Source of the DNA: a virus
Virus record (IMG/VR): IMGVR_UViG_3300037493_002604
Span: 1-42,126 of that record
Length of the DNA: 42,126 nucleotides
Strand: one strand, 5' to 3'
In this document: piece by piece, positions 17,994 to 41,583 of the stretch
How positions within the stretch are numbered: position 1 is the first letter of the stretch
Layout of the letters: every line of letters starts with the position of its first letter
Made by a program: the position numbers and the translations under genes
The notes under the pieces: generated by a model
Told to the model about the DNA's origin: nothing
The model's database searches: none
Seen by the model: the letters and a program-made list of their open reading frames with translations, nothing else

Positions 17994-18022
17994 ATCTTAG
18001 TATCACGCATAAATTTATGCAA
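17994..18022 (-). promoter_or_regulatory. Minus-strand promoter of the TTGCAT family
   Basis: On the minus strand: TTGCAT, 17-nt spacer, TAAGAT. The spacer is overlapped by a perfect 14-bp palindrome GCATAAATTTATGC (18007-18020), and an A/T-rich stretch lies upstream. It drives the 43-aa/YfiM-like/43-aa operon. Confidence 0.8.
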
Positions 18023-18038
18023 GATTTATTTCTAGTGC

Positions 18039-18067
18039 TTGCACTCTATAAATTCATAACGTATAGT
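18039..18067 (+). promoter_or_regulatory. Plus-strand promoter, divergent from 17994-18022
   Basis: TTGCAC (18039-18044), exactly 17 nt, TATAGT (18062-18067), preceded by GTGC as in other family members. It points into the 18104 gene and forms a back-to-back pair with the minus promoter. Confidence 0.75.
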
Positions 18068-18103
18068 TTGATACATCAACAACCACTTTGGAGTCATGCC
18101 TGT

Positions 18104-18526
18104 ATGATTAACCCCTTCATGTTACTAGCAGCAAAAACAAAGCTAACGCCAGAAGAAGTTACAGATATTGCTCTACCCAACTTAATCTGGCTTGATCTTC
18201 TAAAAGAAAACAAGGCGGATGATGCTATATGTGGACAGATAACACGTAATCTTGTTATAACGCAGATCATTGCAGCAGATAAGCAAAGCCGCGCTTTATA
18301 TGATATGTCATGTATTGGTATTAAAGCTTTTATGTCAGCAATGATTCGTAAAGATGAACGCAACATGCCATTTATGGAGTTATCAACACCAGAACTAAAG
18401 GCAGTGAAGAAAGTATTATTAAGTTATGGCCGTATCTTGCCGCAACTAGACTTAGGAAGTATCAACGGGGCCACTTATCGGTGGCTTGAAATTAAGCATG
18501 TTTTTGGAGGAAGGGATGATGAATAA
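18104..18526 (+). CDS. Hypothetical protein, 140 aa
   Basis: The 140-residue, mostly helical protein is not recognised. The frame is open from 18017, but the -10 of the promoter is at 18062, so starts upstream of about 18075 cannot be transcribed from it. The ATG at 18104 (MINPFMLLAAKTKLTPEE) follows GGAG at 18090 and is the best choice. It overlaps the next gene by 11 nt. It is an accessory gene inserted between head and neck modules. Confidence 0.65.
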   Translation: MINPFMLLAAKTKLTPEEVTDIALPNLIWLDLLKENKADDAICGQITRNLVITQIIAADKQSRALYDMSCIGIKAFMSAMIRKDERNMPFMELSTPELKAVKKVLLSYGRILPQLDLGSINGATYRWLEIKHVFGGRDDE

Positions 18527-19019
18527 ATCAAACAAGCCTAGCTGGGATGATGCGCCGGCAGGGGCTAGGATTCTTGTTCAATCTGAGACTGGTAATTTTA
18601 ACTTTGGAAGTTTTAATAATGCTTACGTTGTAGACGATGAAGGGTGGACTGGGACTGGTAAAGGGCAGTGGTTTACCACAATTCATGGATTCTCAAACCC
18701 AGACTGGCGCAACACACTAGAGTACCGGCCAACTGTAAAGGAATCCTTGACAGTTGACACAAAAATCAACCACGTAACAACAACTAATTTAAGTGAGGAG
18801 TTGGATAGTATGAGTATTAACAAATACAACAAGCAATGCAAAGGCATCACAATCGACGTATACGACGTTTTAAAAGCTTTTGATGTAACTTGTCCAGCAA
18901 TGCAGCACTCTATCAAGAAATGCCTTATGGCTGGTAAGCGTGGTGCTAAGGATGCGGCGCAAGATATGAATGAAGCCATCCAGTCTATTGAGCGAAGTAA
19001 GGAATTGTTAGATCAATAA
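18516..19019 (+). CDS. Phage protein with a DVYDVLKAF-type C-terminal domain
   Basis: The 167-residue protein starts at an ATG with GGAGG 5 nt upstream (a second ATG follows immediately). The C-terminal about 65 residues (KGITIDVYDVLKAFDVTCPA, then HSIKKCLMAGKRGAKD) resemble a small domain common in phage genomes with unknown function, often encoded alone. The N-terminal half is rich in Gly, Asn and Trp and seems to be a separate module. Coupled to the preceding gene and followed by a terminator. Confidence 0.75.
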   Translation: MMNKSNKPSWDDAPAGARILVQSETGNFNFGSFNNAYVVDDEGWTGTGKGQWFTTIHGFSNPDWRNTLEYRPTVKESLTVDTKINHVTTTNLSEELDSMSINKYNKQCKGITIDVYDVLKAFDVTCPAMQHSIKKCLMAGKRGAKDAAQDMNEAIQSIERSKELLDQ

Positions 19020-19023
19020 AACA

Positions 19024-19052
19024 AAACCCACCTAAGCAGTGGGGTTTTTTAT
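19024..19052 (+). terminator. Rho-independent terminator
   Basis: AACCCAC, 7-nt loop, GTGGGGTT and a T-run. It closes the 18104-19019 operon and may also act on the converging 19052 gene. Confidence 0.9.
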
Positions 19053-19264
19053 TAACTAGCCGTATAACAAGTCGCCCACAGCTCTTGGGAAATACGCACA
19101 GCATTAGCCGCACGTTCTGTGCCTTGCGTATGCATGGCTCTGTTATATTGGCGCTGGAATACAACAAACTTTTCTTCACTTGTCACAAATACAGCAGCAA
19201 TACCAAATGATGCTACATCGTCATTGACAAGATTCATCAGCGCATCACGCAGTTTAAAGTCCAT
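19052..19264 (-). CDS. Small hypothetical protein, 70 aa
   Basis: A 70-residue protein (MDFKLRDALMNLVNDDVASF and onward) downstream of the Rha-family gene on the minus strand. The chosen ATG has GGAG 6 nt upstream. The frame also reads upstream to a TTG inside the end of the rha-like gene, without a ribosome binding site. Not recognised. The Gln/Arg-rich second half may be helical. Confidence 0.65.
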   Translation of the reverse strand: MDFKLRDALMNLVNDDVASFGIAAVFVTSEEKFVVFQRQYNRAMHTQGTERAANAVRISQELWATCYTAS

Positions 19265-19301
19265 AGGATTCTCCATATAAAAACGTATGATAGCACAATA
19301 A

Positions 19302-19970
19302 TTACTTGGCAATTTTTAGGTTATCGATCAACCCGCTAAGAGTACCGCAGCGGTACTTTGCCATCTGATAAATATCGTGATAATCCATCTCCGCCTTTAT
19401 GCCGTCTTGGATAGCTATCTTAATCATCATTTCAACCGTTGCCATGATTGAAAGCTGTCTAGCGTCCATGCTGTCGCGCTCACCAGCTTTTACACCGCAG
19501 ATATTGTTTGCCAACTTGCTGTATGCAATGTAAAGCTTGCTTGCGTTCTGACTGCCCGCTGCCTCTGCATAATCCTTTAGCTCTTTGATTGCATCTGTTT
19601 CTTCTAGCCTTACTTTCTTTCCGCTTAGGCGTGCTAAGTCGCGTGTGGCTAGTTGTTTGCGTGCGCTAGAGAATGACTTTACCAGCGCCAGCTTGCATGC
19701 AACCACGCGGGCATTGTTTCGCATAAGGGTAAGCAGGAAAAAACACTGATCTTCATTTAGCAAAGCATAACGGATTGTTGCATAACCGCCTTGAGGTCGC
19801 TCCAAACCACCTTCCGTTTGAAACGGAAGGTGTCCTAGCTGCCTTAATTCATCTGAATACTTATCGATACTTTCAAGAATTGTTCTGTGGCGGTGATCTA
19901 GGAAAGGCGCAAGCAGGCGGGAGTCAGTGCGAAGTTCTTTATGAATCTGAGAGATGATAATTTCATTCAT
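19302..19970 (-). CDS. Rha-family phage regulatory protein
   Basis: The 222-residue protein carries the Rha/pRha-type regulator core at about residues 38-85 (RPQGGYATIRYALLNEDQCF then FFLLTLMRNN and KLALVKSFSSAR). A C-terminal helical domain follows (KELKDYAEAAGSQNASKLYI and KLANNICGV), common in Rha and related antirepressor-like proteins. Rha proteins modulate phage growth and lysogeny decisions, and their exact mechanism is poorly known. The ATG at 19970 (MNEIIISQ) fits the family start better than the one at 20009. Unusually, it is embedded between capsid-side fibre genes and the neck genes. Confidence 0.85.
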   Translation of the reverse strand: MNEIIISQIHKELRTDSRLLAPFLDHRHRTILESIDKYSDELRQLGHLPFQTEGGLERPQGGYATIRYALLNEDQCFFLLTLMRNNARVVACKLALVKSFSSARKQLATRDLARLSGKKVRLEETDAIKELKDYAEAAGSQNASKLYIAYSKLANNICGVKAGERDSMDARQLSIMATVEMMIKIAIQDGIKAEMDYHDIYQMAKYRCGTLSGLIDNLKIAK

Positions 19971-20014
19971 GATTAATACTCGTTGCAGCCACAATTTGGC
20001 ATTTAGCATTATAC

Positions 20015-20042
20015 AATAAAAAACCCCGCATCACGCGGGGTT
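20015..20042 (-). terminator. Rho-independent terminator
   Basis: AACCCCGC (20022-20029), 5-nt loop, GCGGGGTT (20035-20042). On the minus strand it is followed by a T-run. It should stop leftward readthrough into the rha-like gene. Confidence 0.85.
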
Positions 20043-20140
20043 AGTGGCCTGCCTATTATTTATGCCACTTATTGTGTGGCTAAAGATTAGATCACCGCCT
20101 TATGAGTTGCTGTGACTTAAAGATATACCTAAATATTTAC

Positions 20141-20169
20141 TTGCACAAGTTTTATTGTTGTTGTATAGT
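20141..20169 (+). promoter_or_regulatory. Plus-strand promoter of the TTGCAY family
   Basis: TTGCAC (20141-20146), 17 nt, TATAGT (20164-20169), 33 nt before the zinc-ribbon gene. Hexamers are identical to those of the 18039 promoter, but without the palindromic spacer. Confidence 0.78.
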
Positions 20170-20201
20170 TTTGTACATACACACTCTTATGAGCATCAAT
20201 C

Positions 20202-20843
20202 ATGCACCCAAAAATGATTTTTAAACCTTGCGCAAAGTGCAACGGAGAAATGAAAATAAGTTACTTTAAAAATAACGTGCGCTGCACAAAATGTGTGAGT
20301 TGCAGCGACTCTGTGAGGACAAATGTTTTGACTGGGGAAGTAATTGGCGGACAGCGTAGAAAAATGCCTACTTGCCCTATATGCGGTGCTAAGGGCGTTT
20401 CTCATCGTGACTTAGGAAAAAAAAGATATATGCATTGTAAAGGAGAAGTATCCCATGATTTTGTAGTATGGAAAGAAACACTAGAGATAGTTACAAATCA
20501 TAAGCCACGAACAAAGAATGGAGAAGCGCAACCAAGAATAAGACCATCACGTGCTAAGCACCCGCCGCGCATTCCTAAACCAAGCAAACCTACAAATACC
20601 AATGCAAGCAAAACGAAGCGCGAAGAATCAGTAAAAATATTTACTGAGATGAAAACTTGTTCAAAATGCAATGAGTCAAAGCCTGTTATTCATTTTAGGC
20701 ATTACAAAACAGGTCTATACCCACAATGCAAGCACTGCGAGAATTTAAAGGCTAGTCAGAAGACCGCTGTAATTGATAACGCCAGACTAAGGATAGAAGC
20801 GCGACGTGATTTGATGGGCGATGTTGATCCGTTGTTTGTATGA
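20202..20843 (+). CDS. Zinc-ribbon protein, 213 aa
   Basis: The 213-residue basic protein has three Cys clusters: CxxC pairs in residues 10-35 (CAKC, CTKC plus CVSC region), CPIC with a later Cys/His at about 58-80, and a C-terminal CSKC...CKHC at about 150-180. The last follows the pattern seen before HNH domains in phage proteins (CSKCNESKPVIHFRHY then YPQCKHC). No HNH motif follows, so it is a DNA/RNA-binding zinc protein rather than a proven nuclease. The central linker is Lys/Arg/Pro-rich. It is a stand-alone gene with its own promoter and terminator, inserted against the direction of the structural genes. Confidence 0.8.
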   Translation: MHPKMIFKPCAKCNGEMKISYFKNNVRCTKCVSCSDSVRTNVLTGEVIGGQRRKMPTCPICGAKGVSHRDLGKKRYMHCKGEVSHDFVVWKETLEIVTNHKPRTKNGEAQPRIRPSRAKHPPRIPKPSKPTNTNASKTKREESVKIFTEMKTCSKCNESKPVIHFRHYKTGLYPQCKHCENLKASQKTAVIDNARLRIEARRDLMGDVDPLFV

Positions 20844-20875
20844 AAAAAACCCCCTAGAGATAGGGGGTTTTTTCA
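20842..20875. terminator. Bidirectional terminator
   Basis: AAACCCCCTA, 4-nt loop, TAGGGGGTTT with A/T-runs on both sides. It serves the zinc-ribbon gene and the converging 516-aa fibre gene. Confidence 0.95.
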
Positions 20876-22426: not shown

Positions 22427-22427
22427 G

Positions 22428-23564: not shown

Positions 23565-23791
23565 TTGACCTTTGGTGATAGAGCAAAGCCCACGAGATCC
23601 CCATTGGCCTTTGCGCCTGTTAGCTTCAATTCAGCGCCATCACTTACCAACGCGGATGGGACAAGCGGCGTAAACGTTTCTGATGCTGAACCCGCTTGGA
23701 TTTTTAGCTGGGTATCAAAAGGAGTTACGGTTAAATCAAACGGCTCTTGCGCGTCACTTGCATCTAACTTTAAAACTCTTGTAATTAACAT
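23480..23791 (-). pseudogene. N-terminal part of the frameshifted fibre protein
   Basis: The ATG at 23791 has a good ribosome binding site (GAGGTAAT). The first about 74 residues (MLITRVLKLDASDAQEPFDL to LVGFALSPK) look like a normal fibre N-terminus. After ALSPK the frame continues with about 29 residues that are only a shadow of the fibre sequence read in the other frame. The break lies at about 23567. If the sequence is correct, the phage makes a truncated 103-residue product and perhaps a reinitiated fibre body. Confidence 0.75.
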
Positions 23792-28691: not shown

Positions 28692-28859
28692 CTATTTCTT
28701 CACCGCCCAAACCAAACAAACAACCCATCCTATAAACGTCCAGCCTAGCAAAATATTCAGCACACTAATGGCTTGAGTGTTTTTGTTATCGCAACGAGCT
28801 GCTGCAATTGTTGGAAACATGTACATAAAAAATACGAATAGTGCGATTACTAAGCTCAT
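28692..28859 (-). CDS. Superinfection immunity protein
   Basis: The 55-residue membrane protein starts MSLVIALFVFFMYMFPTIAA, with AGGA just upstream of the ATG. The MFPTIAAARC segment, then QAISVLNILLGWTFIGWVVCLVWA, matches the superinfection immunity family (T4 Imm-like proteins, two membrane helices with an LLGWTxIGW motif). Such proteins sit in the inner membrane and block DNA entry by related phages after infection. It is the last gene of a four-gene leftward operon with a TTGCAT-type promoter. Confidence 0.88.
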   Translation of the reverse strand: MSLVIALFVFFMYMFPTIAAARCDNKNTQAISVLNILLGWTFIGWVVCLVWAVKK

Positions 28860-28860
28860 T

Positions 28861-28971
28861 TTATCCTGCCCTATGAAGAAACTTAATAACACCACGCCAT
28901 ACTCGGCACACGAAACCATCTTTGATGTAGTAATGCGGCTTGTTGTTTGTGTTTGCTAGTTTGGATTTCAT
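28861..28971 (-). CDS. Tiny hypothetical protein, 36 aa
   Basis: A 36-residue basic frame (MKSKLANTNNKPHYYIKDGF and onward). Its ATG overlaps the upstream stop (ATGA), and it ends 1 nt before the immunity gene start. The tight packing in a coupled operon supports real translation. Function is unknown; it may assist the membrane protein that follows. Confidence 0.6.
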   Translation of the reverse strand: MKSKLANTNNKPHYYIKDGFVCRVWRGVIKFLHRAG

Positions 28972-29204
28972 CTAACGCTCCGATATTCACTCACCATCTC
29001 ATCAGCACTTTTCAATATTTCATCCGTCTTTTCATTCCAAGGCGTTTTAAGTGCTTCGCTTAGCTCTTCTAACTTTGCCAGCAACTCAGCAACATTATCG
29101 CCTTGTTGTTGCCATGCTCTTGTGAAACCTCTTTCCATATCAACCGACACTATAGAACCTACCCGTGCCGTTAGTGTTTTGTGTGCTGCTTCTCTAGTGA
29201 TCAT
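28968..29204 (-). CDS. Hypothetical protein, 78 aa
   Basis: A 78-residue helical, acidic protein (MITREAAHKTLTARVGSIVS and onward). Its ATG overlaps the preceding stop (ATGA). An in-frame TTG at 29219 could give five more residues but has poorer support. There is no membrane segment. It is the second gene of the immunity operon. Confidence 0.7.
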   Translation of the reverse strand: MITREAAHKTLTARVGSIVSVDMERGFTRAWQQQGDNVAELLAKLEELSEALKTPWNEKTDEILKSADEMVSEYRSVR

Positions 29205-29401
29205 TTTCCACTTTCCCAAATAGATCTAACAAATTTACCATCTTTATCTATCAAACTAACAGAAGTGCAGTTACCTTTACCATCGGTCGTGATTGATGTA
29301 AATAAATCTCCCGCAGTCATTAGAGCCGCTTTTATTGCCGTCATTGATTCGGGAGTTGTAAAGTATTTCTTATAATCAGATACCTTTATAGAATCTCTCA
29401 T
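29201..29401 (-). CDS. Hypothetical protein, 66 aa
   Basis: The first gene of the immunity operon. The 66-residue protein has a helix-rich first half (MRDSIKVSDYKKYFTTPESM) and a beta-rich second half (NCTSVSLIDKDGKFVRSIWE). AGGAAG lies about 8 nt before the ATG, and the TTGCAT-type promoter ends 28 nt upstream. Not recognised. Confidence 0.7.
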   Translation of the reverse strand: MRDSIKVSDYKKYFTTPESMTAIKAALMTAGDLFTSITTDGKGNCTSVSLIDKDGKFVRSIWESGK

Positions 29402-29428
29402 GACCGCTTCCTGTTTGTCGATAACTGC

Positions 29429-29457
29429 ATCTTAAACCACTGCATAAAATCATGCAA
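29429..29457 (-). promoter_or_regulatory. Minus-strand TTGCAT-type promoter of the immunity operon
   Basis: On the minus strand: TTGCAT, 17 nt, TAAGAT, with AAATAAAT upstream. The spacer overlaps TGCATAAAATCATGCA (29441-29456), identical to the element at 31034-31049. Confidence 0.82.
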
Positions 29458-30041
29458 CATTTATTTTGAACTAATCACAATCTATTCCTAAGCGATCAGA
29501 CCGTGTAGATGACGCTATGTGTTATCCGTCACCACAACAATGTAGCGTAGGTGTGTTTCTATCTAAGGCATGGGCATTGTGAGTGCATACATGGGGATTA
29601 TTATCGTAATGCCGCCAACGTATGCCGCCGTGCTGCCTATATGCCGCCTTGCCCAGTGTGGCTCAATCCTTACTAGCGCTAAAAACATGATTTTATTTTT
29701 GTAATGCTTTAGCGCGAGAGACATGTTTTTATATCTACATCGTTAAGCGTTACAAGCTCTTTTTTCAGAGCATTTCACGACACAACTCTTAGCGGGAAAT
29801 ATCATTTTTGTTTACGCTACATGAAAGAACGATTACAAATAAGCATGTTATTTTGTAATGATTACATTATACGTAAACAAAAAACATTTATGTTTGAAAG
29901 ATAAGTCTGATTTATGGTGATAATTACATCACATTTAAGTTTCACCTACCTATGTTTGTAACACACAGGTGGTGTGGGGGGTCGCTTTTTCGTGAAAGGT
30001 TTTGTAATTATCGCCATATTAGCACTGCAAGTGTAAGCATA

Positions 30042-30059
30042 TAAGCATATATATGCTTA
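30042..30059. repeat. 18-bp perfect palindrome with a flanking direct repeat
   Basis: TAAGCATATATATGCTTA is its own reverse complement, and TAAGCATAT is repeated directly at 30034-30042. It lies 11 nt from the end of the gp7-like gene. A dimeric regulator or replication protein could bind here. Confidence 0.6.
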
Positions 30060-30070
30060 CATAATGTTAT

Positions 30071-30991
30071 CTAATCGCCATACTCATCTTGCCATTGTTT
30101 GCGTTCGTCAGCCATTTTGTCGGTTAGATTCTTAGTCAATAATGGCTTCCCATTGTCGTCTAGTAATACAGTGGTTACTGAACAGTGGCAGTTAAACTTG
30201 TTACCTCGCTCTGCATAAAAAGCCTTTACCTCTGCTTCCGTGTACACCCCACCGGAACGCGATGCGTGCCAGTGCCTTGTGGTAGCCAAGAATGCAGAAG
30301 TCCATAACAGCGCGGTCTTTATGCCAAACTCCTTTTGTACACGCGCGTCTTCATTCATCGTCGTCTGGCGTAGCGTGTCGGTGATGTCAGTCTGACTATA
30401 TTGTCTGGCCTTTGACCTACTCACCCCTAACCGATCGCTAATCTCAGTAACCACCGACTTAGGATTCTTCCCATCAGCCACCGCCTGCGTAATAACCTGC
30501 ATCAGATCGGCTTTAGTTTGAGCTGCAAGTCCCGTCCAGTGCTCATAACTCTTGAATTGCGCCGTTGCTATGGCATTCTGGTACGGTTGACTATGAATAA
30601 TGCTAGAAAGCGTCTCAGCAGCCGCGTAGGTGGAACTAACGGTGGATATGTTTGTGTATGCAGTTGCAGCCCCTGTTGCTACAGCCTGTTCGCTGAAAGT
30701 GGCATAGAAAAAGTCATCTGGAGATTTTCCATCTATCAGCCACTTATCAAGAATGCGCTGTATTGTCTCAGATAGCGCCATGCGATCAATCGCAGATAGG
30801 CCATAGGCTACCTCGGCCTCGTTTATGGCAGTGCCCGAGTTGAGGGCATACACCGGCACGGCATTAAACGCCGCTATGATCTCTGTCTCCGCGCCTTTAT
30901 AACGTGCGTCAATCTCTTTAAGCGCCTTATTAAGAATACGGTTAGCGCCTACAGGATCTGTCTTGCTACGGGGAATGATTGGGTTTTTCAT
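30071..30991 (-). CDS. SPP1 gp7-like minor head protein
   Basis: The 306-residue protein belongs to the SPP1 gp7 / Mu gpF head morphogenesis family. These proteins ride on the portal and aid DNA ejection and head assembly. Family features are clear in the C-terminal half: RLGVSRSKARQYSQTDITDT (about 185-205), RHWHASRSGGVYTEAEVKAF and the final NKFNCHCSVTTVLL. The ATG at 30991 has GAGG 5 nt upstream; a GTG two codons earlier is also possible. It is separated from the portal gene by a small plus-strand accessory unit. Confidence 0.88.
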   Translation of the reverse strand: MKNPIIPRSKTDPVGANRILNKALKEIDARYKGAETEIIAAFNAVPVYALNSGTAINEAEVAYGLSAIDRMALSETIQRILDKWLIDGKSPDDFFYATFSEQAVATGAATAYTNISTVSSTYAAAETLSSIIHSQPYQNAIATAQFKSYEHWTGLAAQTKADLMQVITQAVADGKNPKSVVTEISDRLGVSRSKARQYSQTDITDTLRQTTMNEDARVQKEFGIKTALLWTSAFLATTRHWHASRSGGVYTEAEVKAFYAERGNKFNCHCSVTTVLLDDNGKPLLTKNLTDKMADERKQWQDEYGD

Positions 30992-31032
30992 GTTCACCTC
31001 AAAAATATATGCATAGTATACGTCAAAAGCGC

Positions 31033-31061
31033 TTGCATAAAATCATGCAGTAGATAATAAT
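31033..31061 (+). promoter_or_regulatory. Plus-strand TTGCAT-type promoter
   Basis: TTGCAT (31033-31038), 17 nt, AATAAT (31056-31061; TAATAA one base earlier). TGCATAAAATCATGCA lies at 31034-31049. It precedes the 31090 gene. Confidence 0.75.
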
Positions 31062-31089
31062 GACTGCATACACAAACAAGGAGCGAGTA

Positions 31090-31260
31090 ATGACAAGCAT
31101 CCCACCATTACCACACGGCTGCAATAGCTGGGTAATCATCTCAAAAAAAACGGGGAAAGCAATTTGTGAGCTTTACAATATTGATAACGTCATGAAAGTT
31201 GACGCAACAAAGAATATTATTATGGATGCTAAAACCTATCTATCAGGATTGAATAAATGA
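31090..31260 (+). CDS. Small phage protein, 56 aa
   Basis: This 56-residue protein (MTSIPPLPHGCNSWVIISKK) has the SWVIIxxxTGxAxxE pattern of a small phage protein family of unknown function that I recall from accessory regions of other phages. The ATG at 31090 has GGAGCGAGTA before it. The earlier ATG at 31060 lies inside the promoter -10 and is rejected. Coupled to the next gene by ATGA. Confidence 0.72.
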   Translation: MTSIPPLPHGCNSWVIISKKTGKAICELYNIDNVMKVDATKNIIMDAKTYLSGLNK

Positions 31261-31457
31261 AAAAATACGATCACACATGGCTTATCGCAGAATTGGAGCG
31301 GATGGGTCGGCCAGAGCGTGAAGCATCATTCACCCACGGCACATGCGAATGGAAAGACCCCTCGTTATGCGGCCTGTTGTTGTTGGAGAATAAAAAAAAG
31401 CCCCAAGTCATCGGGGCTTTTTCTATTACATCACCGTCTTGTCTTGCGTATCCGTAG
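31257..31457 (+). CDS. Small hypothetical protein running through a terminator
   Basis: A 66-residue frame coupled by ATGA to the preceding gene (MKKYDHTWLIAELERMGRPE). About residue 46 onward it is encoded by the terminator hairpin at 31389-31421 and by the antisense of the portal gene end, so the last 20 residues are unlikely to be native. Probably a truncated accessory gene whose original 3' end was lost, or a gene that ends by terminator-limited transcription. Confidence 0.5.
   Translation: MKKYDHTWLIAELERMGRPEREASFTHGTCEWKDPSLCGLLLLENKKKPQVIGAFSITSPSCLAYP
31389..31421. terminator. Bidirectional terminator
   Basis: AAGCCCC, 8-nt loop, GGGGCTT with A/T-runs on both sides. It serves the portal gene on the minus strand and the small accessory unit on the plus strand. 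Confidence 0.92.
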
Positions 31458-32797: not shown

Positions 32798-32826
32798 TTG
32801 CATAAAATTGTGCGTACACTTATAAT
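32798..32826 (+). promoter_or_regulatory. Plus-strand TTGCAT-type promoter, near consensus
   Basis: TTGCAT (32798-32803), exactly 17 nt, TATAAT (32821-32826), preceded by GTGC. It drives the 32865-35461 accessory/lysis block. Confidence 0.88.
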
Positions 32827-32864: not shown

Positions 32865-33149
32865 ATGAGCAACAAATTCCAACCACGTTACCAAGTATTC
32901 TTTGATGCATTTGGTAAACAAAAAAATTGGGTTTACCTTGATTTTATCAAAAAAATGAAACTTTCTTATATGAAGTCTATTTACCCAAATATCAGCAATG
33001 TTGATGCGCTTTATAAAACACTAGAAAGCCAAGAAGGTTTTGATGTTTTTATCAAAGAAAACCTATATTTACACATTTTACCGGAAGGAGTTGATCATGA
33101 AGCAACAAACACAACCAACCGACACAGAGATGCTCAATTGGATGATTGA
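32865..33149 (+). CDS. Hypothetical protein, 94 aa
   Basis: The first gene after the near-consensus promoter, with GGA 9 nt before the ATG. The 94-residue protein is basic and aromatic (RYQVFFDAFGKQKNWVYLDF). The last about 20 residues (after LHILPEG) overlap the next gene in another frame and look unlike the rest, so the native end may have been changed by rearrangement. Not recognised. Confidence 0.65.
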   Translation: MSNKFQPRYQVFFDAFGKQKNWVYLDFIKKMKLSYMKSIYPNISNVDALYKTLESQEGFDVFIKENLYLHILPEGVDHEATNTTNRHRDAQLDD

Positions 33150-33267
33150 AAATGCAACGTGGGCAGCTGATATTTTTTACGTAACACACATAGAAGGAAT
33201 GTCGGATGATGAATACCCAACCGCCCGCCAAGCAATCGCCGCCGAAATGGCAAAGGAAGCAAAATGA
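33097..33267 (+). CDS. Small acidic hypothetical protein, 56 aa
   Basis: A 56-residue protein (MKQQTQPTDTEMLNWMIENA) with an excellent ribosome binding site (GGAAGGAGTTGATC) 5' of the ATG at 33097. The longer frame from 33040 is not supported. Helical, with no membrane segment. Coupled by ATGA to the next gene. Confidence 0.7.
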   Translation: MKQQTQPTDTEMLNWMIENATWAADIFYVTHIEGMSDDEYPTARQAIAAEMAKEAK

Positions 33268-33524
33268 AACTCTCACAAATCCTAATTGAAGCAGGCGTGA
33301 CACCTAGCGACTTTGCAAACTATAAATTTGTTTCACAAGATAATGTCGGCAGATTAAATTTATCGACCACAAAGCCATGCGAAATATTTAATGGCTACTG
33401 GATGCATGCAGACAAAGACGCGGATTGTGTCGGATTCTTACCTCGCGCCGAAGACTGGCAAACCCCACTCTCCCGAGCACAATTCATTGCTGATTATGAG
33501 GAGCATTGTGCCAAAATAACTTAA
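33264..33524 (+). CDS. Hypothetical protein, 86 aa
   Basis: An 86-residue protein starting MKLSQILIEAGVTPSDFANY, coupled to the preceding gene by ATGA. The N-terminal helix followed by a compact Trp/Asp-rich part suggests a small soluble domain. Not recognised. Confidence 0.7.
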   Translation: MKLSQILIEAGVTPSDFANYKFVSQDNVGRLNLSTTKPCEIFNGYWMHADKDADCVGFLPRAEDWQTPLSRAQFIADYEEHCAKIT

Positions 33525-33584
33525 ATACTTCCTCCTAACGCTATCTGCTGGCGTTGTTTATTCTTTAATTTGGTGGGTTATGGC

Positions 33585-33776
33585 ATGAAACTAAATACTA
33601 TTCTATTTTTAACGCTTTGTTTTATGCTTGGCAATATACTTGGTGGGATTTATTTGGATAAATATTATCCAAAGCCTGTAGATAAATCTAAATACATCGA
33701 TAAATCACAATGCATTGGCCTACCAAGTAGTGATGTTAATGATTATTGGGCGTGCCGGAAGGAGGTTAATAAATGA
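33585..33776 (+). CDS. Small membrane-anchored protein, 63 aa
   Basis: A 63-residue protein with one N-terminal hydrophobic segment (about residues 4-25, NTILFLTLCFMLGNILGGIY) and a short Lys/Tyr-rich tail with two Cys. The orientation is probably N-in with the tail outside the inner membrane. The ATG at 33585 has GGTGGG upstream. It lies 60 nt after the previous gene and is coupled to the next by ATGA. A lysis accessory or exclusion function is possible. Confidence 0.65.
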   Translation: MKLNTILFLTLCFMLGNILGGIYLDKYYPKPVDKSKYIDKSQCIGLPSSDVNDYWACRKEVNK

Positions 33777-33991
33777 TTTACTTGATAAAAGCATTTAACT
33801 GGTTACGCTTCGGCACTTTGCAGCCTATTATTACAAAGGTAGAGCATGGTTTCGCTGCTGAAATAGAATTCTTTGGTAGAAATGATAAATTAGTTGGCGT
33901 CTATTCTTATGGGTATTACTACCAAACACTCCCATATAAAGGACAGTCATGCCCTATGACTGAGACAATTAAGAAGGAGATGATTGTATGA
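33773..33991 (+). CDS. Hypothetical protein, 72 aa
   Basis: A 72-residue protein (MIYLIKAFNWLRFGTLQPII) with an amphipathic N-terminus and a beta-rich Tyr-containing middle. Both ends overlap neighbours by ATGA. Not recognised. It precedes the holin candidate, so it may belong to the lysis unit. Confidence 0.62.
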   Translation: MIYLIKAFNWLRFGTLQPIITKVEHGFAAEIEFFGRNDKLVGVYSYGYYYQTLPYKGQSCPMTETIKKEMIV

Positions 33992-34224
33992 TTTCTTTAA
34001 TCCCCGACTGGCGCACATCCCACAAAAAAGCCACAGTTATATTCTGCGCATTCATGGCAGTACTTGCACAATACTATACTGATGTGCTATTATTTGCTTA
34101 TGAGCAATTGCCGATCATTGTTCAATACATGCCAGCAGAGGCTGGATTTGGCAAGTGGATGCCGTGGATAGTGATAGGACTGCGGATTGTTAGTTTTAAA
34201 TCAAATAAGGAAGAAACAAAATGA
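33988..34224 (+). CDS. Holin candidate (DUF7940-like)
   Basis: The 78-residue protein starts MISLIPDWRTSHKKATVIFC. It has a first membrane segment at about residues 14-38, a Pro/Gly-containing loop and a second at about 58-72, and ends in a Lys/Glu tail. Size, topology and the 'IPDWR..xK' start agree with phage holins annotated in the DUF7940 group. It would open the inner membrane for the lysozyme encoded at 16518-16931. Coupled on both sides, and followed within 800 nt by the spanins. Confidence 0.72.
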   Translation: MISLIPDWRTSHKKATVIFCAFMAVLAQYYTDVLLFAYEQLPIIVQYMPAEAGFGKWMPWIVIGLRIVSFKSNKEETK

Positions 34225-34310
34225 CCAACCATATTCCCCTACAACCATTATCCGAATCATTGTTTGATCAGCAGAATGAAGTAATGGCTGCTATGCATGA
34301 CTATGAATAG
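34221..34310 (+). CDS. Tiny hypothetical protein, 29 aa
   Basis: A 29-residue frame (MTNHIPLQPLSESLFDQQNE) whose ATG overlaps the holin stop (ATGA) and whose end overlaps the next tiny frame. The coupling is the only support. Confidence 0.4.
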   Translation: MTNHIPLQPLSESLFDQQNEVMAAMHDYE

Positions 34311-34383
34311 CCTTCTAACATCATCAATCCTAGCAAGCCTCATTACGGGGCTTGTTTTTGGCGCATGTAAGGATATTGATTAA
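34303..34383 (+). CDS. Tiny hydrophobic peptide, 26 aa
   Basis: A 26-residue hydrophobic frame (MNSLLTSSILASLITGLVFG, then ACKDID) with a lipobox-like FGAC. It overlaps the preceding frame by 8 nt and the AP2/HNH-like gene start by TAATG. It may be a real small membrane or lipoprotein peptide, or only a coupling device. A CAAGCC/GGCTTG hairpin with TTTTT lies inside it. Confidence 0.35.
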   Translation: MNSLLTSSILASLITGLVFGACKDID

Positions 34384-34994
34384 TGAAAAAGTTAGTGCAT
34401 GGTATTGGCATTAATGATGCAGATTATGTGGTTAGACCCACCATTAACGGCAAGCAAGTAATGTGTAGAATTTACATGACTTGGAATAACATGATTACTA
34501 GATGTTATAACGAAAAACGTAAATCCAGATTCCCAAGTTACATTGGCTGCACCGTTTGTGATGAATGGTTGGTATTTTCAAACTTTAAGAAGTGGATGGA
34601 GAATCAAGACTGGAAAGGTAAGCATTTGGATAAGGATATTATCTACCCAATGAACAAGCAGTACGGCCCAAATAATTGTGTTTTTATTTCTAGTGGATTG
34701 AACATGCTATTAATAGACCATGCTGCCAAGAGAGGGATATTCCCAATAGGTGTCTGTTGGAGTGATGCAAGGAAAAAATTCATGTCATACGTAACAGTGA
34801 ATAGCAAGCCAAAGCATTTAGGTTTGTTCGAAAATAAAGAATTTGCCCATCAAGCATGGCAAAAAGCCAAAAAAGAATTGATCTACATTGCTGCACAGGA
34901 ACAAGAAAACGAACGAGTAAAGAATGCTTTACTTTCAAGATGTACACAACTGCAATATGATATTGATAACGAGTTGGAGACAGTAAAATTATGA
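34383..34994 (+). CDS. AP2/HNH-like DNA-binding protein
   Basis: The 203-residue protein resembles a widespread phage family of homing-nuclease relatives. The N-terminal MTWNNMITRCYN and CTVCDEWLVFSNFKKWMENQ, then LDKDIIYPMNKQYGPNNCVF, form the conserved HNH-like treble-clef region. The second half, with IGVCWSDARKKFMSYVTVNS and LGLFENKEFAHQAW, is an AP2-type DNA-binding domain. The classic catalytic His pair is not obvious, so it may bind rather than cut. It is inserted between holin and spanins with coupled start (TAATG) and end (ATGA). Confidence 0.8.
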   Translation: MKKLVHGIGINDADYVVRPTINGKQVMCRIYMTWNNMITRCYNEKRKSRFPSYIGCTVCDEWLVFSNFKKWMENQDWKGKHLDKDIIYPMNKQYGPNNCVFISSGLNMLLIDHAAKRGIFPIGVCWSDARKKFMSYVTVNSKPKHLGLFENKEFAHQAWQKAKKELIYIAAQEQENERVKNALLSRCTQLQYDIDNELETVKL

Positions 34995-35461
34995 ATTCAA
35001 TTCTAATGCAATCCATTGTTGCAAGCTTCATTGTTGGTGCTTTTGGCGGGCTATATACTGGTTATCAGTACTCGCAAGGGAAGCAGGCCATTAAAAACAC
35101 CGCCATAATGACAGAGCAGGCTTCTGCTGTGGATAATGCTCGCATAGAAGAGCAGGAAATTGTAAAGGCTGACGTAGCCACATCTAAAACATACCAAGAG
35201 GGATTGAACGATGGTAAAAAAGATCTTAATGCTGTTATTGCTAAGCTTCGCTATGATAGGGTGCGCAACAGTTCCACCGGTAGTGCAAGTATGCCCACAA
35301 ATACCACCACCGCCAGCGGACGTGATGCAGAAGAGAGAGCCTACATTTTTGAAGAGATGGCAAGACTTGCAGGAGAAGCTGACGACGTTACAAAACAATT
35401 AACGGCAGCTCAGGATTTGTTAGATGGCAGGGCTGCGGCAATCAACCAAACCACACCTTAA
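34991..35461 (+). CDS. Inner-membrane spanin, Rz-like
   Basis: This 156-residue i-spanin has an N-terminal membrane anchor (about residues 5-25, LMQSIVASFIVGAFGGLYTG) and a long helical periplasmic part (about 35-150) rich in Ala, Glu, Lys and Asp. It fuses inner and outer membranes together with Rz1 at the last step of lysis. Its start overlaps the upstream stop (ATGA). The o-spanin gene lies wholly inside it in another frame, the strongest evidence for the assignment. Confidence 0.9.
   Translation: MNSILMQSIVASFIVGAFGGLYTGYQYSQGKQAIKNTAIMTEQASAVDNARIEEQEIVKADVATSKTYQEGLNDGKKDLNAVIAKLRYDRVRNSSTGSASMPTNTTTASGRDAEERAYIFEEMARLAGEADDVTKQLTAAQDLLDGRAAAINQTTP
35211..35402 (+). CDS. Outer-membrane spanin lipoprotein, Rz1-like (embedded)
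   Basis: The 63-residue lipoprotein has a signal sequence MVKKILMLLLLSFAMIGCA with a lipobox ending in Cys18, and a Pro-rich mature start (TVPPVVQVCPQIPPPPADV). This is the classical Rz1 profile. It is encoded entirely within the Rz-like gene in a different frame. The mature 46-residue protein would sit in the outer membrane and bind the Rz C-terminus. Confidence 0.92.
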   Translation: MVKKILMLLLLSFAMIGCATVPPVVQVCPQIPPPPADVMQKREPTFLKRWQDLQEKLTTLQNN

Positions 35462-35477
35462 ACGTGTGGTTTTTTTA
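35449..35477 (+). terminator. Rho-independent terminator after the spanins
   Basis: AACCACAC, 7-nt loop, GTGTGGTT and a T-run. It overlaps the Rz stop codon and is followed 10 nt later by the next promoter. Confidence 0.93.
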
Positions 35478-35486: not shown

Positions 35487-35515
35487 TTGCATGATTTTAT
35501 GCGTTGATATAGAAT
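35487..35515 (+). promoter_or_regulatory. Plus-strand TTGCAT-type promoter
   Basis: TTGCAT (35487-35492), exactly 17 nt, TAGAAT (35510-35515), preceded by GTGC. The spacer has TGCATGATTTTATGC. It drives the single 61-aa gene. Confidence 0.82.
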
Positions 35516-35555: not shown

Positions 35556-35741
35556 ATGGTTAATTACTATGTGTATGACTCATCAAAATTCTCAACACTT
35601 CTTGACGCAATTGATTCAAAGCAGGCTTTTAATGCAAATGCATTTATCAATATAAAAAATGATGTTGAGATTGGTAAGCTGGTTGATTTTCTATCTGATT
35701 GCTTCGGATTTGAGGTTAGAATAACCAGAGAAATTTTATAA
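35556..35741 (+). CDS. Small hypothetical protein, 61 aa
   Basis: A single-gene unit with its own promoter and terminator. The 61-residue protein (MVNYYVYDSSKFSTLLDAID) looks like a small alpha/beta domain ending FGFEVRITREIL. AAGGGG lies upstream of the ATG. Not recognised. It is an insert between the spanins and the split terminase locus. Confidence 0.68.
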   Translation: MVNYYVYDSSKFSTLLDAIDSKQAFNANAFINIKNDVEIGKLVDFLSDCFGFEVRITREIL

Positions 35742-35774
35742 AAAAAAACCCCACACTTGTGGGGTTTTTTTTAT
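35741..35774. terminator. Bidirectional terminator
   Basis: AACCCCAC, 4-nt loop, GTGGGGTT with A/T-runs of eight on both sides. It stops the 61-aa gene (plus) and the terminase C-part (minus). Confidence 0.95.
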
Positions 35775-38116: not shown

Positions 38117-38543
38117 TGTTTTGTTGCTCCACAATAGCTTCTAGTTTTTCCATCCTCTCTACCAGCTCTGTCGTTTCCATCACTTCTAGCGAGGTTTTTA
38201 TAATACCTGCGAGAGTGGAAGCAATGTCAGAAGGCAAATCACCATTAGCCACGGCGCGAATGATCGCATCCATTTTTTCAACTGGCGTCCCATTAGTAGG
38301 GAAGAAGAATTCAACAGCAGGCATGACTGATTTAGGAACAGGTGCAAGTCGAGATAAAATCTCTCGCATAGCGTATTCATCGCCACTTTCAATTGCATTG
38401 GTTAGCAAAACATCAATAAGATCCTCTTCTGTTTTACCTTGGCGCTCTAATGCCTCAATAATCTTTGCTTTCCATCCTTTCCCACGCTTAGCACGTGTTG
38501 AATAATCTGGCTGATGATCAGCATCAAAAAGAAGTTTTGCCAT
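38097..38543 (-). CDS. Small terminase subunit (TerS)
   Basis: The 148-residue, mostly helical protein lies directly upstream of terL and overlaps its start by 20 nt, as TerS genes usually do. The N-terminal KRGKGWKAKIIEALERQGK region could form the DNA-binding helix-turn-helix, and the C-terminal MEKLEAIVEQQNNGKAPK a coiled coil for oligomerisation. It should recognise the packaging site and load DNA into the split TerL motor. Confidence 0.8.
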   Translation of the reverse strand: MAKLLFDADHQPDYSTRAKRGKGWKAKIIEALERQGKTEEDLIDVLLTNAIESGDEYAMREILSRLAPVPKSVMPAVEFFFPTNGTPVEKMDAIIRAVANGDLPSDIASTLAGIIKTSLEVMETTELVERMEKLEAIVEQQNNGKAPK

Positions 38544-38581
38544 TCCGTTTTTTTTCCGTCTTAGTGATTAATAATATACAT

Positions 38582-38605
38582 AAAAAAACCGGCACTATTG
38601 CCGGT
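38582..38605 (-). terminator. Rho-independent terminator
   Basis: ACCGGC (38588-38593), 6-nt loop, GCCGGT (38600-38605). The minus strand continues with seven T. It lies between the membrane-protein pair and terS. Confidence 0.92.
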
Positions 38606-38863
38606 CTATTGTTTACTTTCCAGCTTGGCAATTTCAAGATCTTTGATGCGCATGTCTTTCTCTGCGATCTTAGATGATTGCCACATTCGATACATAGTAA
38701 AAATACCAATTAACAAACCAACAAATGTGCTTACCACACCCAACATCAGATTTAGATTATTCAATCCTATTGATGTGACTAAAGCACTAATAGTCCCCGT
38801 AATCTTTGGTTGGTTTGCGGCGAGTGCGAATACTTCTGATTCGCTGTTTGCATGTTCGCTCAT
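38606..38863 (-). CDS. Holin-like membrane protein, 85 aa
   Basis: The 85-residue protein has a soluble N-terminus and one strong membrane segment at about 37-60 (LMLGVVSTFVGLLIGIFTMY), a weaker hydrophobic stretch before it, and a charged C-terminal helix (KIAEKDMRIKDLEIAKLESK). The outline suits a small holin or antiholin. With the DUF7940-like protein at 33988, the phage may have a holin/antiholin pair on opposite strands. It starts 2 nt after the stop of the next membrane gene. Confidence 0.6.
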   Translation of the reverse strand: MSEHANSESEVFALAANQPKITGTISALVTSIGLNNLNLMLGVVSTFVGLLIGIFTMYRMWQSSKIAEKDMRIKDLEIAKLESKQ

Positions 38864-38865
38864 GA

Positions 38866-39306
38866 TTATACCATTTTACCTTTAAAAGTACCCAATACAC
38901 GATCACGCATACCCACACGATCATCGAAATTGCAGAAAGCGCGTCCTGTATCATATATGCCAGCCCTTAGCAAAATTGCCATTTGAATCACCAAAATCAT
39001 AGTAATGGCGATATTGTAGGGTATTGCAGACATATAAGCCAAGTACCAAAGATAACCTAATCCATTGATGATACAACTTATTAGGCTAAAAACAGCCAAC
39101 AAAAAACTGGTTCGTGTATTTAATCCAACCACAAACCAAGCAGTAATGCCGTCTAGAAGTGCTGCAGTTGCATAATAAACAAATGGCCCATGCTCTCTTC
39201 CTATTCCAAAATAATGAAACATATTCACAACAAAAAAAGAAAGTGCAGCAATCCTCCTATCTCGTTTTAACAACAACGCAAATATGATGAATGCTGCACT
39301 TTCCAT
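38866..39306 (-). CDS. Multi-pass membrane protein, 146 aa
   Basis: The 146-residue protein has about four hydrophobic segments (near 3-14, 20-33, 43-60 with 64-82, and 88-112) and a charged C-terminal tail. No family was recognised. It is paired with the holin-like gene downstream and may modify lysis timing or host membrane properties. Confidence 0.68.
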   Translation of the reverse strand: MESAAFIIFALLLKRDRRIAALSFFVVNMFHYFGIGREHGPFVYYATAALLDGITAWFVVGLNTRTSFLLAVFSLISCIINGLGYLWYLAYMSAIPYNIAITMILVIQMAILLRAGIYDTGRAFCNFDDRVGMRDRVLGTFKGKMV

Positions 39307-39326
39307 TGTATTAAATCCAAAAATGT

Positions 39327-39416
39327 TTATTTCTTTTTAGTTGGTACTTGTTTTTTTTCTTGCACTGGTGATTGAGGAGCTTGCTTAGGACGTTCAAAAC
39401 CGCTGCCACCTGCCAT
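39327..39416 (-). CDS. Tiny basic protein, 29 aa
   Basis: A 29-residue frame (MAGGSGFERPKQAPQSPVQE, Lys-rich end) with an excellent ribosome binding site GGAGGTTTTATT before the ATG. Likely translated. It lies 20 nt before the membrane protein gene. Very small 'MAGGSGFE' peptides occur in other phages, with unknown function. Confidence 0.55.
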   Translation of the reverse strand: MAGGSGFERPKQAPQSPVQEKKQVPTKKK

Positions 39417-39448
39417 AATAAAACCTCCATTTAAAAGATTATAATAAC

Positions 39449-39664
39449 CTATTCTGACCAAAAAGCCAATGGTTCTAATGTTTCACCAGCCTTTCGTAGC
39501 GCTTCAATTGTCTTATCACGTGGTGGACGATGCCCACGTTCTTGATGACTAATCGACAGCGCAGTAGTTCCAGCCAGTTCTGCAAGTTGTTTTTGAGACA
39601 AACCCAAGTAAACCCGATTCATCTCAATAAACTTTCGTTTTGTCCATTCTTCGTTGACTTGCAT
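39449..39664 (-). CDS. Cro/CI-type HTH regulator
   Basis: The 71-residue protein is a single XRE-family helix-turn-helix domain. LSQKQLAELAGTTALSISHQ (about 22-41) gives the two HTH helices, and ERGHRPPRDKTIEALRKAGE follows the usual pattern. It should bind an operator as a dimer and could be a Cro-like repressor. The repeat-rich region upstream (39665-40003) is the likely place for its operators. Confidence 0.88.
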   Translation of the reverse strand: MQVNEEWTKRKFIEMNRVYLGLSQKQLAELAGTTALSISHQERGHRPPRDKTIEALRKAGETLEPLAFWSE

Positions 39665-40003
39665 ATTTACCTTAATAAAAAAATATTAGAGATATAACCA
39701 ACACAGCTTAATCCCCGTTATCACGGCTACATTGCCTAATCAGTGCATGGACTAAGTTGTGTTGCTACTGCTTAGGCCAGTAAATCCGGTCTTCCACAAT
39801 GAGTATCGCCACCACACGACCACAACACAAGGAGTCACAGCTAGCTGTACTGCCAACACAACCCCCTAGCTGTTACTGCTTATGCAAATTATTGTGGATT
39901 TTGCAATTCGCAGGAGAAAAATAGGAATGTGTTGTCTACTTCAATAAGTACATATTAATACAAAGAACAAAAACATGCAAGCATTATTTCCACCGCTAGT
40001 AAT
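39665..40003. other. Repeat-rich intergenic region
   Basis: There is no gene. The 7-mer CAACACA or its complement occurs five times (39699, 39758, 39823, 39854, 39928) within 236 bp. ACAGCTAGCTGT (39837-39848) is a perfect 12-bp palindrome, and CTAGCTGTACTGC recurs with one inserted base at 39866-39879. It lies between the HTH gene and the small-gene operon, about 1.1 kb from terS. Operators, a packaging site or an origin are all possible. Confidence 0.6.
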
Positions 40004-40219
40004 TCATTTCCTATCTATTCCATTAAAAGGTACAAAATCGATAAGGTTTATTACTTTACCATCTATGCAAGCCGAACCGAGTAGTGTTGTGACTCTATTC
40101 ATAGCGTTAGTGGCATCTACTACAAAACAAGCACCAACATTGCGTTGTTCACTCATAATCTTGCCTTCCAGACATAGGTACGCAAGATGATTGAATGCCT
40201 CATGTAAATCATTATTCAT
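40004..40219 (-). CDS. Small hypothetical protein, 71 aa
   Basis: A 71-residue protein (MNNDLHEAFNHLAYLCLEGK) with GGAG 6 nt before the ATG, and a beta-rich C-terminal half (GACFVVDATNAMNRVTTLLG). Its ATG overlaps the end of the interrupted gene at 40212-40406, so it is the last gene of the minus-strand small-gene chain. Not recognised. Confidence 0.68.
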   Translation of the reverse strand: MNNDLHEAFNHLAYLCLEGKIMSEQRNVGACFVVDATNAMNRVTTLLGSACIDGKVINLIDFVPFNGIDRK

Positions 40220-40406
40220 CGCTATCTCCAAGGCTATATAGATCCAAAGCGCTCACATTATCCTTGTCCGCTTCCCAATCAATAATAATCGAGTGTTCAC
40301 CATCCAAGAGAAACATATTCACATCATCAGTTTAACCAAGTGGGAAATCCCAATCGTTAAGATATGGCTGAATGCGCTTTAAAAGTTCAATAGCTTCATT
40401 GATCAT
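40212..40406 (-). pseudogene. Small gene interrupted by an in-frame TAA
   Basis: From the ATG at 40406 (GAGGTGGAATA upstream) the frame reads 24 codons (MINEAIELLKRIQPYLNDWD then FPLG), then TAA, then 39 more codons in the same frame (TDDVNMFLLDGEHSIIIDWE and onward), ending in the overlap with the next gene. The two parts together look like one normal 64-residue protein. A point mutation to TAA is the simplest explanation. A restart at the ATG of MFLLDG is possible but lacks a ribosome binding site. Confidence 0.65.
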
Positions 40407-40599
40407 TATTCCACCTCACTACTGACAAACGATTAATCAAAGCACCCGCATAACGCCGTACACGTCCTTTAGCTATCATCTTTTCCCAAGCTAAAGATGG
40501 TCGCTCGGTTTGTTTATCAAGCGCTTCCATCTCTTCCGCTGCGCGCATGAACTCTTTACATTGGCGTAGTGCTAGGTTTATGGGGCATGGTTGAGTCAT
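40396..40599 (-). CDS. Small basic helical protein, 67 aa
   Basis: The 67-residue protein (MTQPCPINLALRQCKEFMRA) has GGAGG about 10 nt upstream, and its ATG overlaps the preceding stop (ATGA). It is helical and Arg-rich at the end (GRVRRYAGALINRLSVVRW). Not recognised. The longer frame from 40680 is not supported. Confidence 0.68.
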   Translation of the reverse strand: MTQPCPINLALRQCKEFMRAAEEMEALDKQTERPSLAWEKMIAKGRVRRYAGALINRLSVVRWNNDQ

Positions 40600-40676
40600 C
40601 GCGTAAGCACCTCCAATACCCAGCAAATACCTAGTAAAAAGCCTATGGCTACCGTATGCCAGTTTTTTGTCAACAT
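40596..40676 (-). CDS. Tiny membrane peptide, 26 aa
   Basis: A 26-residue frame with one membrane segment (MLTKNWHTVAIGFLLGICWV). Its start overlaps the upstream stop and its end overlaps the downstream start by ATGA. Coupling is the main support. Confidence 0.5.
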   Translation of the reverse strand: MLTKNWHTVAIGFLLGICWVLEVLTR

Positions 40677-40942
40677 GCAATCACCTTCACCCCATCAACA
40701 ACAAAAACACGCTTTCCAGCAATCATTTCTTCTGACAATTCACCACCCAAGAATAGGGAGAAAGGCAATACCTGTACCCAAACTTTAGCCACTCCATCAT
40801 GTATACATACTACTGCACCAGCATTGTGTTTAAGCGCAAACGCTTCGGCATTAATTATCTCTTCTCTAGCCTCCCGCAATGCCTGTTTGTTTAAGATATA
40901 TTCAGATTCTAATTCTTGAAATTTTTGCATGAATAGGTTCAT
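40670..40942 (-). CDS. Hypothetical protein, 90 aa
   Basis: The 90-residue protein has a helical N-terminal half (FQELESEYILNKQALREARE) and a beta-rich half (GAVVCIHDGVAKVWVQVLPF). GGAGGTGATAA precedes the ATG, which overlaps the upstream stop (ATGA). Not recognised. Confidence 0.72.
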   Translation of the reverse strand: MNLFMQKFQELESEYILNKQALREAREEIINAEAFALKHNAGAVVCIHDGVAKVWVQVLPFSLFLGGELSEEMIAGKRVFVVDGVKVIAC

Positions 40943-41199
40943 TTATCACCTCCAAAATCCATACCTTCCAATTTAGCAATCTGCTTTTTTAAGATTGCAA
41001 TCTTTTTATCTCTCATCACCTTAGCGCGATCTAGTGCTTCTTGTTCTGTGAAGCAATAATCACCTTTATGGGCGTAGGTTTTAATTCTTCCAGTTCCATG
41101 ACCATCAATACAATACATGCCATCAATACTTGTTTCATGAGCATCAAACTTCATAATGCCACCAGTCAAGCATCCCTTAGTAACATAAATAATTGTCAT
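40939..41199 (-). CDS. Hypothetical protein, 86 aa
   Basis: The 86-residue protein (MTIIYVTKGCLTGGIMKFDA) has GGAGG upstream and a C-terminal coiled-coil-like helix (MRDKKIAILKKQIAKLEGMD). The middle, with DGHGTGRIKTYAHKGDYCFT, recalls small phage proteins with a conserved 'Y..K.DY.FT..EA' segment. Function is unknown. Coupled on both sides. Confidence 0.72.
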   Translation of the reverse strand: MTIIYVTKGCLTGGIMKFDAHETSIDGMYCIDGHGTGRIKTYAHKGDYCFTEQEALDRAKVMRDKKIAILKKQIAKLEGMDFGGDK

Positions 41200-41321
41200 T
41201 TAAAAACCTCCATCAACTGTTCAAAACTAAACACGCCATCCAGATTGGATACTCGATAGCCACCATGTACGGGGAATATTGTTAGGCCTATATTGCGGGC
41301 TGATTTGATAAGTTGTGCCAT
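41196..41321 (-). CDS. Small hypothetical protein, 41 aa
   Basis: A 41-residue frame (MAQLIKSARNIGLTIFPVHG) with GGAGAGCGAG upstream, ending in the ATGA overlap with the 86-aa gene. It looks like a small alpha/beta peptide. Likely real. Confidence 0.58.
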   Translation of the reverse strand: MAQLIKSARNIGLTIFPVHGGYRVSNLDGVFSFEQLMEVFK

Positions 41322-41347
41322 TCTCGCTCTCCACTTAGTTATTTACA

Positions 41348-41518
41348 TTAAATATCAAAAACAACATTACTTCTTTTGATTACTAAATCGCCTTCAATCT
41401 CATATCCATAATGTTTGCAAAATATTTCTTCCATTTTTTCGTATGGAAGCGATTGAATTTCTTCTGTTGTCAATCCTGAACATTTAAGTGCTTCGTTTAT
41501 TTGTCCTGCAATGTTCAT
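41348..41518 (-). CDS. Hypothetical protein, 56 aa
   Basis: The first gene of the minus-strand small-gene chain, 37 nt downstream of the TTGCAT-type promoter. The 56-residue acidic protein (MNIAGQINEALKCSGLTTEE) looks like a helical bundle with a short beta end (GDLVIKRSNVVFDI). The ATG at 41518 has GGAG 6 nt upstream. Not recognised. Confidence 0.7.
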   Translation of the reverse strand: MNIAGQINEALKCSGLTTEEIQSLPYEKMEEIFCKHYGYEIEGDLVIKRSNVVFDI

Positions 41519-41554
41519 CTCGTTCTCCAATCTGTTGTTTACTTCGATGTAGGT

Positions 41555-41583
41555 ATCTTATGCCTACGTATAAATTTATGCAA
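41555..41583 (-). promoter_or_regulatory. Minus-strand TTGCAT-type promoter of the small-gene chain
   Basis: On the minus strand: TTGCAT, exactly 17 nt, TAAGAT, with an A/T-rich stretch upstream and the TGCATAAATTTAT half-palindrome in the spacer. Same -10 as at 17994 and 29429. Confidence 0.82.

Follow-up and report, generated by a model that had tools for sequence, protein, structure and literature searches.

The phage genome and its relatives

The window analyzed here is an entire viral record of 42,126 bp, of which 91% is coding by our own gene list. Its genes mark it as a tailed phage: A portal, a terminase, a 1022-aa tape measure, and tail proteins are encoded on the minus strand. A related record of 47,101 bp (G002) is circularly permuted relative to the window and supplies the parts beyond the window ends, including replication genes and a P22_Cro-like gene. 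Because no exact end repeat was found in G002, its completeness is only presumed. Tyrosine integrase and resolvase families had no match in any of five records, and the phage group is probably virulent. Searching species genomes with the portal protein revealed no host. Iodobacter phage PhiPLPE, which excerpts of its published description present as lytic and as carrying a lambda-like anti-repressor (PMC3391216), shares short and moderate similarities with the window, and these give only a hint of its host.

Promoter-like sites in the window

The sites considered here, all of which fall in non-coding gaps, are as follows, together with adjoining features.

17994-18022, minus strand: promoter-like site with dyad (operator 18007-18020), before 17830-17961 and 17504-17845 (lipoprotein-like)
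18039-18067, plus strand: promoter-like site TTGCAC/TATAGT without dyad, pointing away from 17994, before 18086-18526 and 18486-19019
20141-20169, plus strand: promoter-like site TTGCAC/TATAGT without dyad, before 20202-20843
29429-29457, minus strand: promoter-like site with dyad (operator 29442-29455), before 29201-29401, 28968-29219, and 28692-28919
31033-31061, plus strand: promoter-like site with dyad (operator 31035-31048), before 31090-31260 and one more small ORF
32798-32826, plus strand: promoter-like site with dyad (operator 32800-32813), before 32865-35461
35448-35472, plus strand: terminator-like stem-loop directly upstream of the 35487 site
35487-35515, plus strand: promoter-like site with dyad (operator 35489-35502), before 35556-35741
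39449-39664, minus strand: 71-aa HTH_3 Cro-like protein, candidate binding protein (Pfam HTH_3, E 7.4e-07)
39952-39980, minus strand: ninth site of the same family, with half operator, ∼290 nt upstream of the HTH gene
41555-41583, minus strand: promoter-like site with dyad (operator 41568-41581), followed by 41348-41518 and additional small genes as far as 40396
41610-41627, minus strand: terminator-like stem-loop directly upstream of the 41555 site

Accessory genes do lie behind these sites, as the first-pass annotation had proposed, but the description is too narrow. The region behind 32798 holds, besides small genes, a holin-like gene (33988-34224), an HNH gene (34383-34994), and a spanin gene (34991-35461), and 39952 is followed by the HTH gene and, farther on, by the terminase region. 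The 29429 unit includes a member of the superinfection immunity family (28692-28919) and ends at a terminator-like stem (28672-28645). A stem-loop with a T-run lies near 31398-31420 in the 31033 unit, and a terminator-like stem (35737-35770) closes 35556-35741. For the 41555 unit, no clear terminator could be recognized.

Eight of the sites had been reported previously, and each of these 29-mers is present on the strand listed with the hexamers and 17-nt spacer ascribed to it. The pattern TTGCAY-N17-[AT]A[ATG][AG][AG]T occurs eight times in the window, compared with a mean of 0.96 and a maximum of 5 in 200 dinucleotide shuffles. Several finer details are also correct: An inverted repeat lies in the spacer of six sites, an identical 16-mer begins at 29441 and 31034, TAAGAT is common to the three minus-strand copies, and GYGC precedes four of the five plus-strand copies.

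The eight sites do not form one class of near-identical promoters, however, since the two TTGCAC sites (18039 and 20141) lack the dyad and fit the family weakly or not at all. When each junction was scored with a matrix trained on all other junctions, the six dyad sites were each recovered from the window with zero false positives (18.5-39.3 bits, versus 7.6-10.1 for the best non-site). The ninth site, 39952, which had been missed, was also recovered (24.7 versus 9.5 bits). Site 20141 is marginal (10.0 versus 8.7 bits) and is conserved in six contigs. Site 18039 fails (−2.7 bits, with 76 non-sites scoring equally high) despite being conserved in three contigs. A nine-site matrix applied to 100 first-order Markov sequences of window length gave a maximum of 16.8 bits and a total of eight hits of at least 14 bits, and the reversed sequences of every scanned locus yielded no hit at 11 bits. 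In a general sigma-70 scan, promoter-like hits were no more common than in shuffled sequences, and only 20141 of the nine sites appeared, offset by one base.

G001, a diverged relative, and PhiPLPE have a promoter-like site in common, GTGCTTGCGCTAACGAAAC (L059 2449-2491, plus strand, in record G001; L001 47332-47374, minus strand). The nearest match to this site in the window is 18039.

A putative symmetric operator between the −35 and −10 boxes

The six sites at 17994, 29429, 31033, 32798, 35487, and 41555 have a common GCAT-N6-ATGC dyad between the −35 and −10 boxes. Among the 26 distinct sequences collected from these six junctions, the outer four dyad positions pair on average 3.4 times out of 4 at the expected axis, versus at most 1.36 at twelve slid axes and 0.5 at the three other junctions. 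At the inner position, where C or T faces G or A, the combinations are C-A (12 sequences), C-G (9), T-A (4), and T-G (1). Thirteen of the 26 are therefore imperfectly complementary at this position, and the site is best written in the tolerant form GYAY-N6-RTRC. At 17994 and 29429, both half-sites are changed in some relatives. This co-change is suggestive rather than conclusive. At 39952, little more than the left half of the dyad is present.

Each of the six dyad sites would constitute a host-type promoter with a −35 box of TTGCAT, a 17-nt spacer, a −10 box resembling TAAGAT or TATAAT, and one symmetric 14-bp operator that overlaps the −35 box. With a transcription start 7 nt downstream of the −10 box, the operator would span about −33 to −20, with its center near −26. 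A dimeric protein bound there would be expected to exclude RNA polymerase.

The same elements could instead recruit a phage middle or late activator, with TTGCA and its partner half-site offsetting a poor −35 box and the units being middle or late genes. TTGCAT does match TTGACA at only three of six positions, every promoter of the family retains TTGCA even where the dyad is missing, and lysis genes and the terminase side lie behind family members. However, the dyad center falls within the polymerase footprint, where bound proteins usually repress, and the 17-nt spacer is unlike that of MerR-type promoters as these are generally described. We consider activation unlikely. Sites of the T4 MotA and lambda CII types were dropped on the basis of the spacing usually attributed to them.

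Another scenario requires no shared regulator at all: Copies of one strong promoter would have been spread by recombination, and the dyad would reflect inherited likeness only. Consistent with copying, the likeness runs past the operator into the leader (71% over 59 nt in family D4). Yet the symmetry largely survives base changes, and the half-sites are retained across junctions and relatives while neighboring spacer bases vary, which makes simple copying the least probable of the explanations considered and quite improbable in its own right.

Promoter-like sites persist while the genes behind them change

The same promoters stand at the same junctions in related viral contigs. A promoter site lies upstream of the portal in all 14 loci found via the portal, and a 39952-type site is present in eight of the 11 loci found via the HTH protein (two of the rest are cut short, and one belongs to an unrelated phage); these counts, like the turnover counts below, are not independent, since the loci are relatives of one another and some share a contig.

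To measure gene turnover, we looked within 1.2 kb downstream of each promoter for the gene that comes first behind it in the window. The count covers 26 loci from 20 contigs and uses only 43-mers assigned by hand to a junction. The first gene is absent behind 31033 in 13 of 13 cases, behind 41555 in 7 of 7, behind 32798 in 11 of 13 (10 of 12 without one case of 361 nt that is too short), behind 29429 in 6 of 8, and behind 35487 in 3 of 5. It is kept at 18039 (3/3), at 20141 (6/6), and, although this is a dyad promoter, at 17994 (5/5). At 39952 it is kept in 8 of 9 cases, the ninth being too short to judge at 77 nt; without this case, none of eight lacks the gene.

One L019/G005 site was assigned to 41555 by the gene behind it. 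The count omits the 32798 variant of contig 3300036977_000101, the sites before replication genes (L029 and G002), two weak 17931-type sites (G005 and G006), one L070 site, and the diverged G001 sites. Contigs fetched by pattern (L002, L005-L011, and L013) were left out; the five of these that were checked (L002, L005, L007, L010, and L013) have no protein match to the window behind the site. L026, which carries an inverted segment, was counted at 29429, 31033, 32798, and 20141. This contig had appeared to show a cassette swap between junctions 29429 and 31033. Its gene map shows that a whole segment corresponding to window 28968-31457, with both promoters and a head morphogenesis gene, is inverted, either truly or by misassembly, and for this reason the swap is not used as evidence.

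Pairwise comparisons give the same picture at the nucleotide level. Agreement covers the promoter and the opening bases of the leader; around the start codon, identity drops to what is seen between unrelated DNAs. The best example is 41555 in the window and in the near relative L029, where identity is 0.93 over the promoter, 0.84 over the first 25 nt, and about 0.5 thereafter; 17994 and 39952 remain alike downstream. In six of ten compared pairs, the 150 nt on the upstream side are dissimilar as well (0.55-0.60), and the exchanged piece may therefore exceed the gene and take in this side. The promoter sequence itself might aid such exchange. Genes of the HNH-type family (window 34383-34994) are found in the accessory regions of G002 and G006 (two each) and of L024, L029, G005, and G001 (one each), and could promote local exchange.

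A candidate regulator

Operators of the 434-type Cro and repressor proteins are symmetric and 14 bp long, with 4-bp half-sites of ACAA placed between the −35 and −10 boxes. The layout in the window is similar, with symmetric operators inside the putatively controlled promoters at six of nine sites, and the phage encodes a small HTH protein of the same size class with an HTH_3 match. In contrast to the 434-type operators, the half-site is GCAT and the sites are distributed over six to seven distant units.

The 71-aa HTH protein, whose gene lies at the head of the late-gene side, has weak sequence likeness to solved structures of HigA, MqsA, C.BclI, and a phage immunity repressor. AlphaFold models had a mean pLDDT of 55 for the protein alone and 50 with seven sequences. 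In G001, the only diverged genome compared, the HTH protein is 45-46% identical with a changed recognition segment, and the right half-site is changed in the orthologous promoters. This single case fits a joint change of protein and operator.

A different regulator might act on these sites, either a host protein or the P22_Cro-like protein encoded beyond the window end. Both G002 and L029, a relative nearly identical to the window, carry a 65-aa gene of this P22_Cro-like type. However, this gene is preceded by GTTGCAA-type repeats rather than by the GCAT-N6-ATGC dyad, and an exact-pattern scan of 84,980 species genomes yielded 29 scattered stretches, all single matches, with no host regulon seen. 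We judge a regulator other than the 71-aa protein to be improbable, to about the same degree as activation.

The preferred explanation is that the six operator-bearing promoters are fixed sockets for exchangeable genes under one switch, for which the 71-aa HTH protein is the likely candidate repressor; we give this about even chances. One switch would then hold six units that carry superinfection immunity, lipoprotein, small unknown, and lysis genes. The HTH product would be made from a promoter of the same family and, because 39952 carries a half site only, its gene would escape or only weakly control itself. The promoter and the start of the leader would stay at each junction while, at five of them, the gene that follows is exchanged, and a newly acquired gene would therefore come under the switch at once. 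The further proposal, that unrelated genes are plugged into and out of these junctions under one phage-encoded repressor so that the regulon is set by place and not by gene content, is more tentative and falls somewhat short of even chances.

The first-pass annotation had envisaged a single regulon switched together at all eight sites. A shared, symmetric, conserved element does stand before several accessory units, and this idea is partly supported: The common switch would cover the six dyad promoters and perhaps 39952, but not all eight, and it would include lysis genes. The latter is a point against our preferred explanation, since lysis genes behind a repressed promoter require a relief step. 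Anti-repressor-like genes of the Rha type (19302-20009) and KilAC type (41633-42082) are present and could lift the repression, that of the lysis genes included. Also weighing against the preferred explanation are the retained first gene at the dyad promoter 17994, the imperfect complementarity of half of the dyad sequences, the upstream differences in the compared pairs, the placement of the HTH gene at the head of the late-gene side, and the presence of a second, P22_Cro-like regulator in relatives.

Relation to known systems

Phage morons are single small units with their own promoter and mostly their own terminator. The units described here are likewise small, lie between structural genes, and carry promoter-like and, for the most part, also terminator-like sequences, but unlike morons several of them have a common operator-bearing promoter. 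Prophage expression is not an evident purpose in this case because no integrase was found. Morons and the PeSL cassettes of T4-type phages appear to be the closest kinds. In PeSL cassettes, according to excerpts of the literature, near-identical promoter copies stand in plastic regions and genes are exchanged at them (Arbiol et al. 2010; Comeau et al. 2014, via PMC4177764, PMC4503421). The window shares with them repeated near-identical promoters between conserved genes, with gene turnover behind. The differences are that this is a long-tailed phage with TTGCAT promoters rather than a T4-type phage with the T4 early promoter, that a symmetric operator is added, and that a terminator stem-loop lies directly before the promoter at only two of nine sites (35487 and 41555).

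The stoperators of Cluster A mycobacteriophages, as described in excerpts of PMC6550527, are asymmetric and mostly outside promoters. They resemble the present sites in being many copies of one repressor site (here a putative one) across a phage genome that drift with the repressor, and differ in that the sites in the window are symmetric and all lie within promoter-like sequence. Judged by titles and abstract openings, the literature searched gave no description of such an arrangement in this phage group.

Overall, this bacterial virus appears to place copies of a single switchable promoter before its optional and lysis genes. The accessory genes of phages are replaced rapidly, and how a newcomer acquires proper timing is an open question. 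If our reading is true, fixed operator-promoters give a simple answer, namely that position confers control. The operator would also allow small unknown genes to be located, and the related sites and regulators would form a compact set for studying joint change of operator and repressor.

Other conserved elements

In the untranslated leader that separates the HTH gene from the 39952 promoter (39660-39955, minus strand), ∼190 nt are shared with relatives at 88-99% and a 147-nt stretch is shared with G001 at 74%. The leader has no Rfam match, and its fold z-score is only −0.6. A second conserved non-coding element of ∼250 nt, absent from the window, lies in the HTH leader of relatives directly upstream of a tRNA-Ile or tRNA-Arg gene (L019 2158-2412, plus strand; also L020, L030, L031, and L036; L001 47086-46925, minus strand). 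Part of it is 90% identical in PhiPLPE; it has no Rfam match and a fold z-score of −2.2.

In G002 (L062-L064, flipped coordinates 796-1230), a 144-aa ORF lies behind a 17994-type promoter, and a 144-aa ORF occupies the same place in L054 (near 4650-5080). The G002 ORF presumably resembles a phage DNA methyltransferase. Finally, patches of 83-95% identity to PhiPLPE occur at window 31255-31427, 33115-33506, and 18527-18565, where the accessory regions are otherwise unrelated. Such short patches suggest that genes may be exchanged at short shared stretches.
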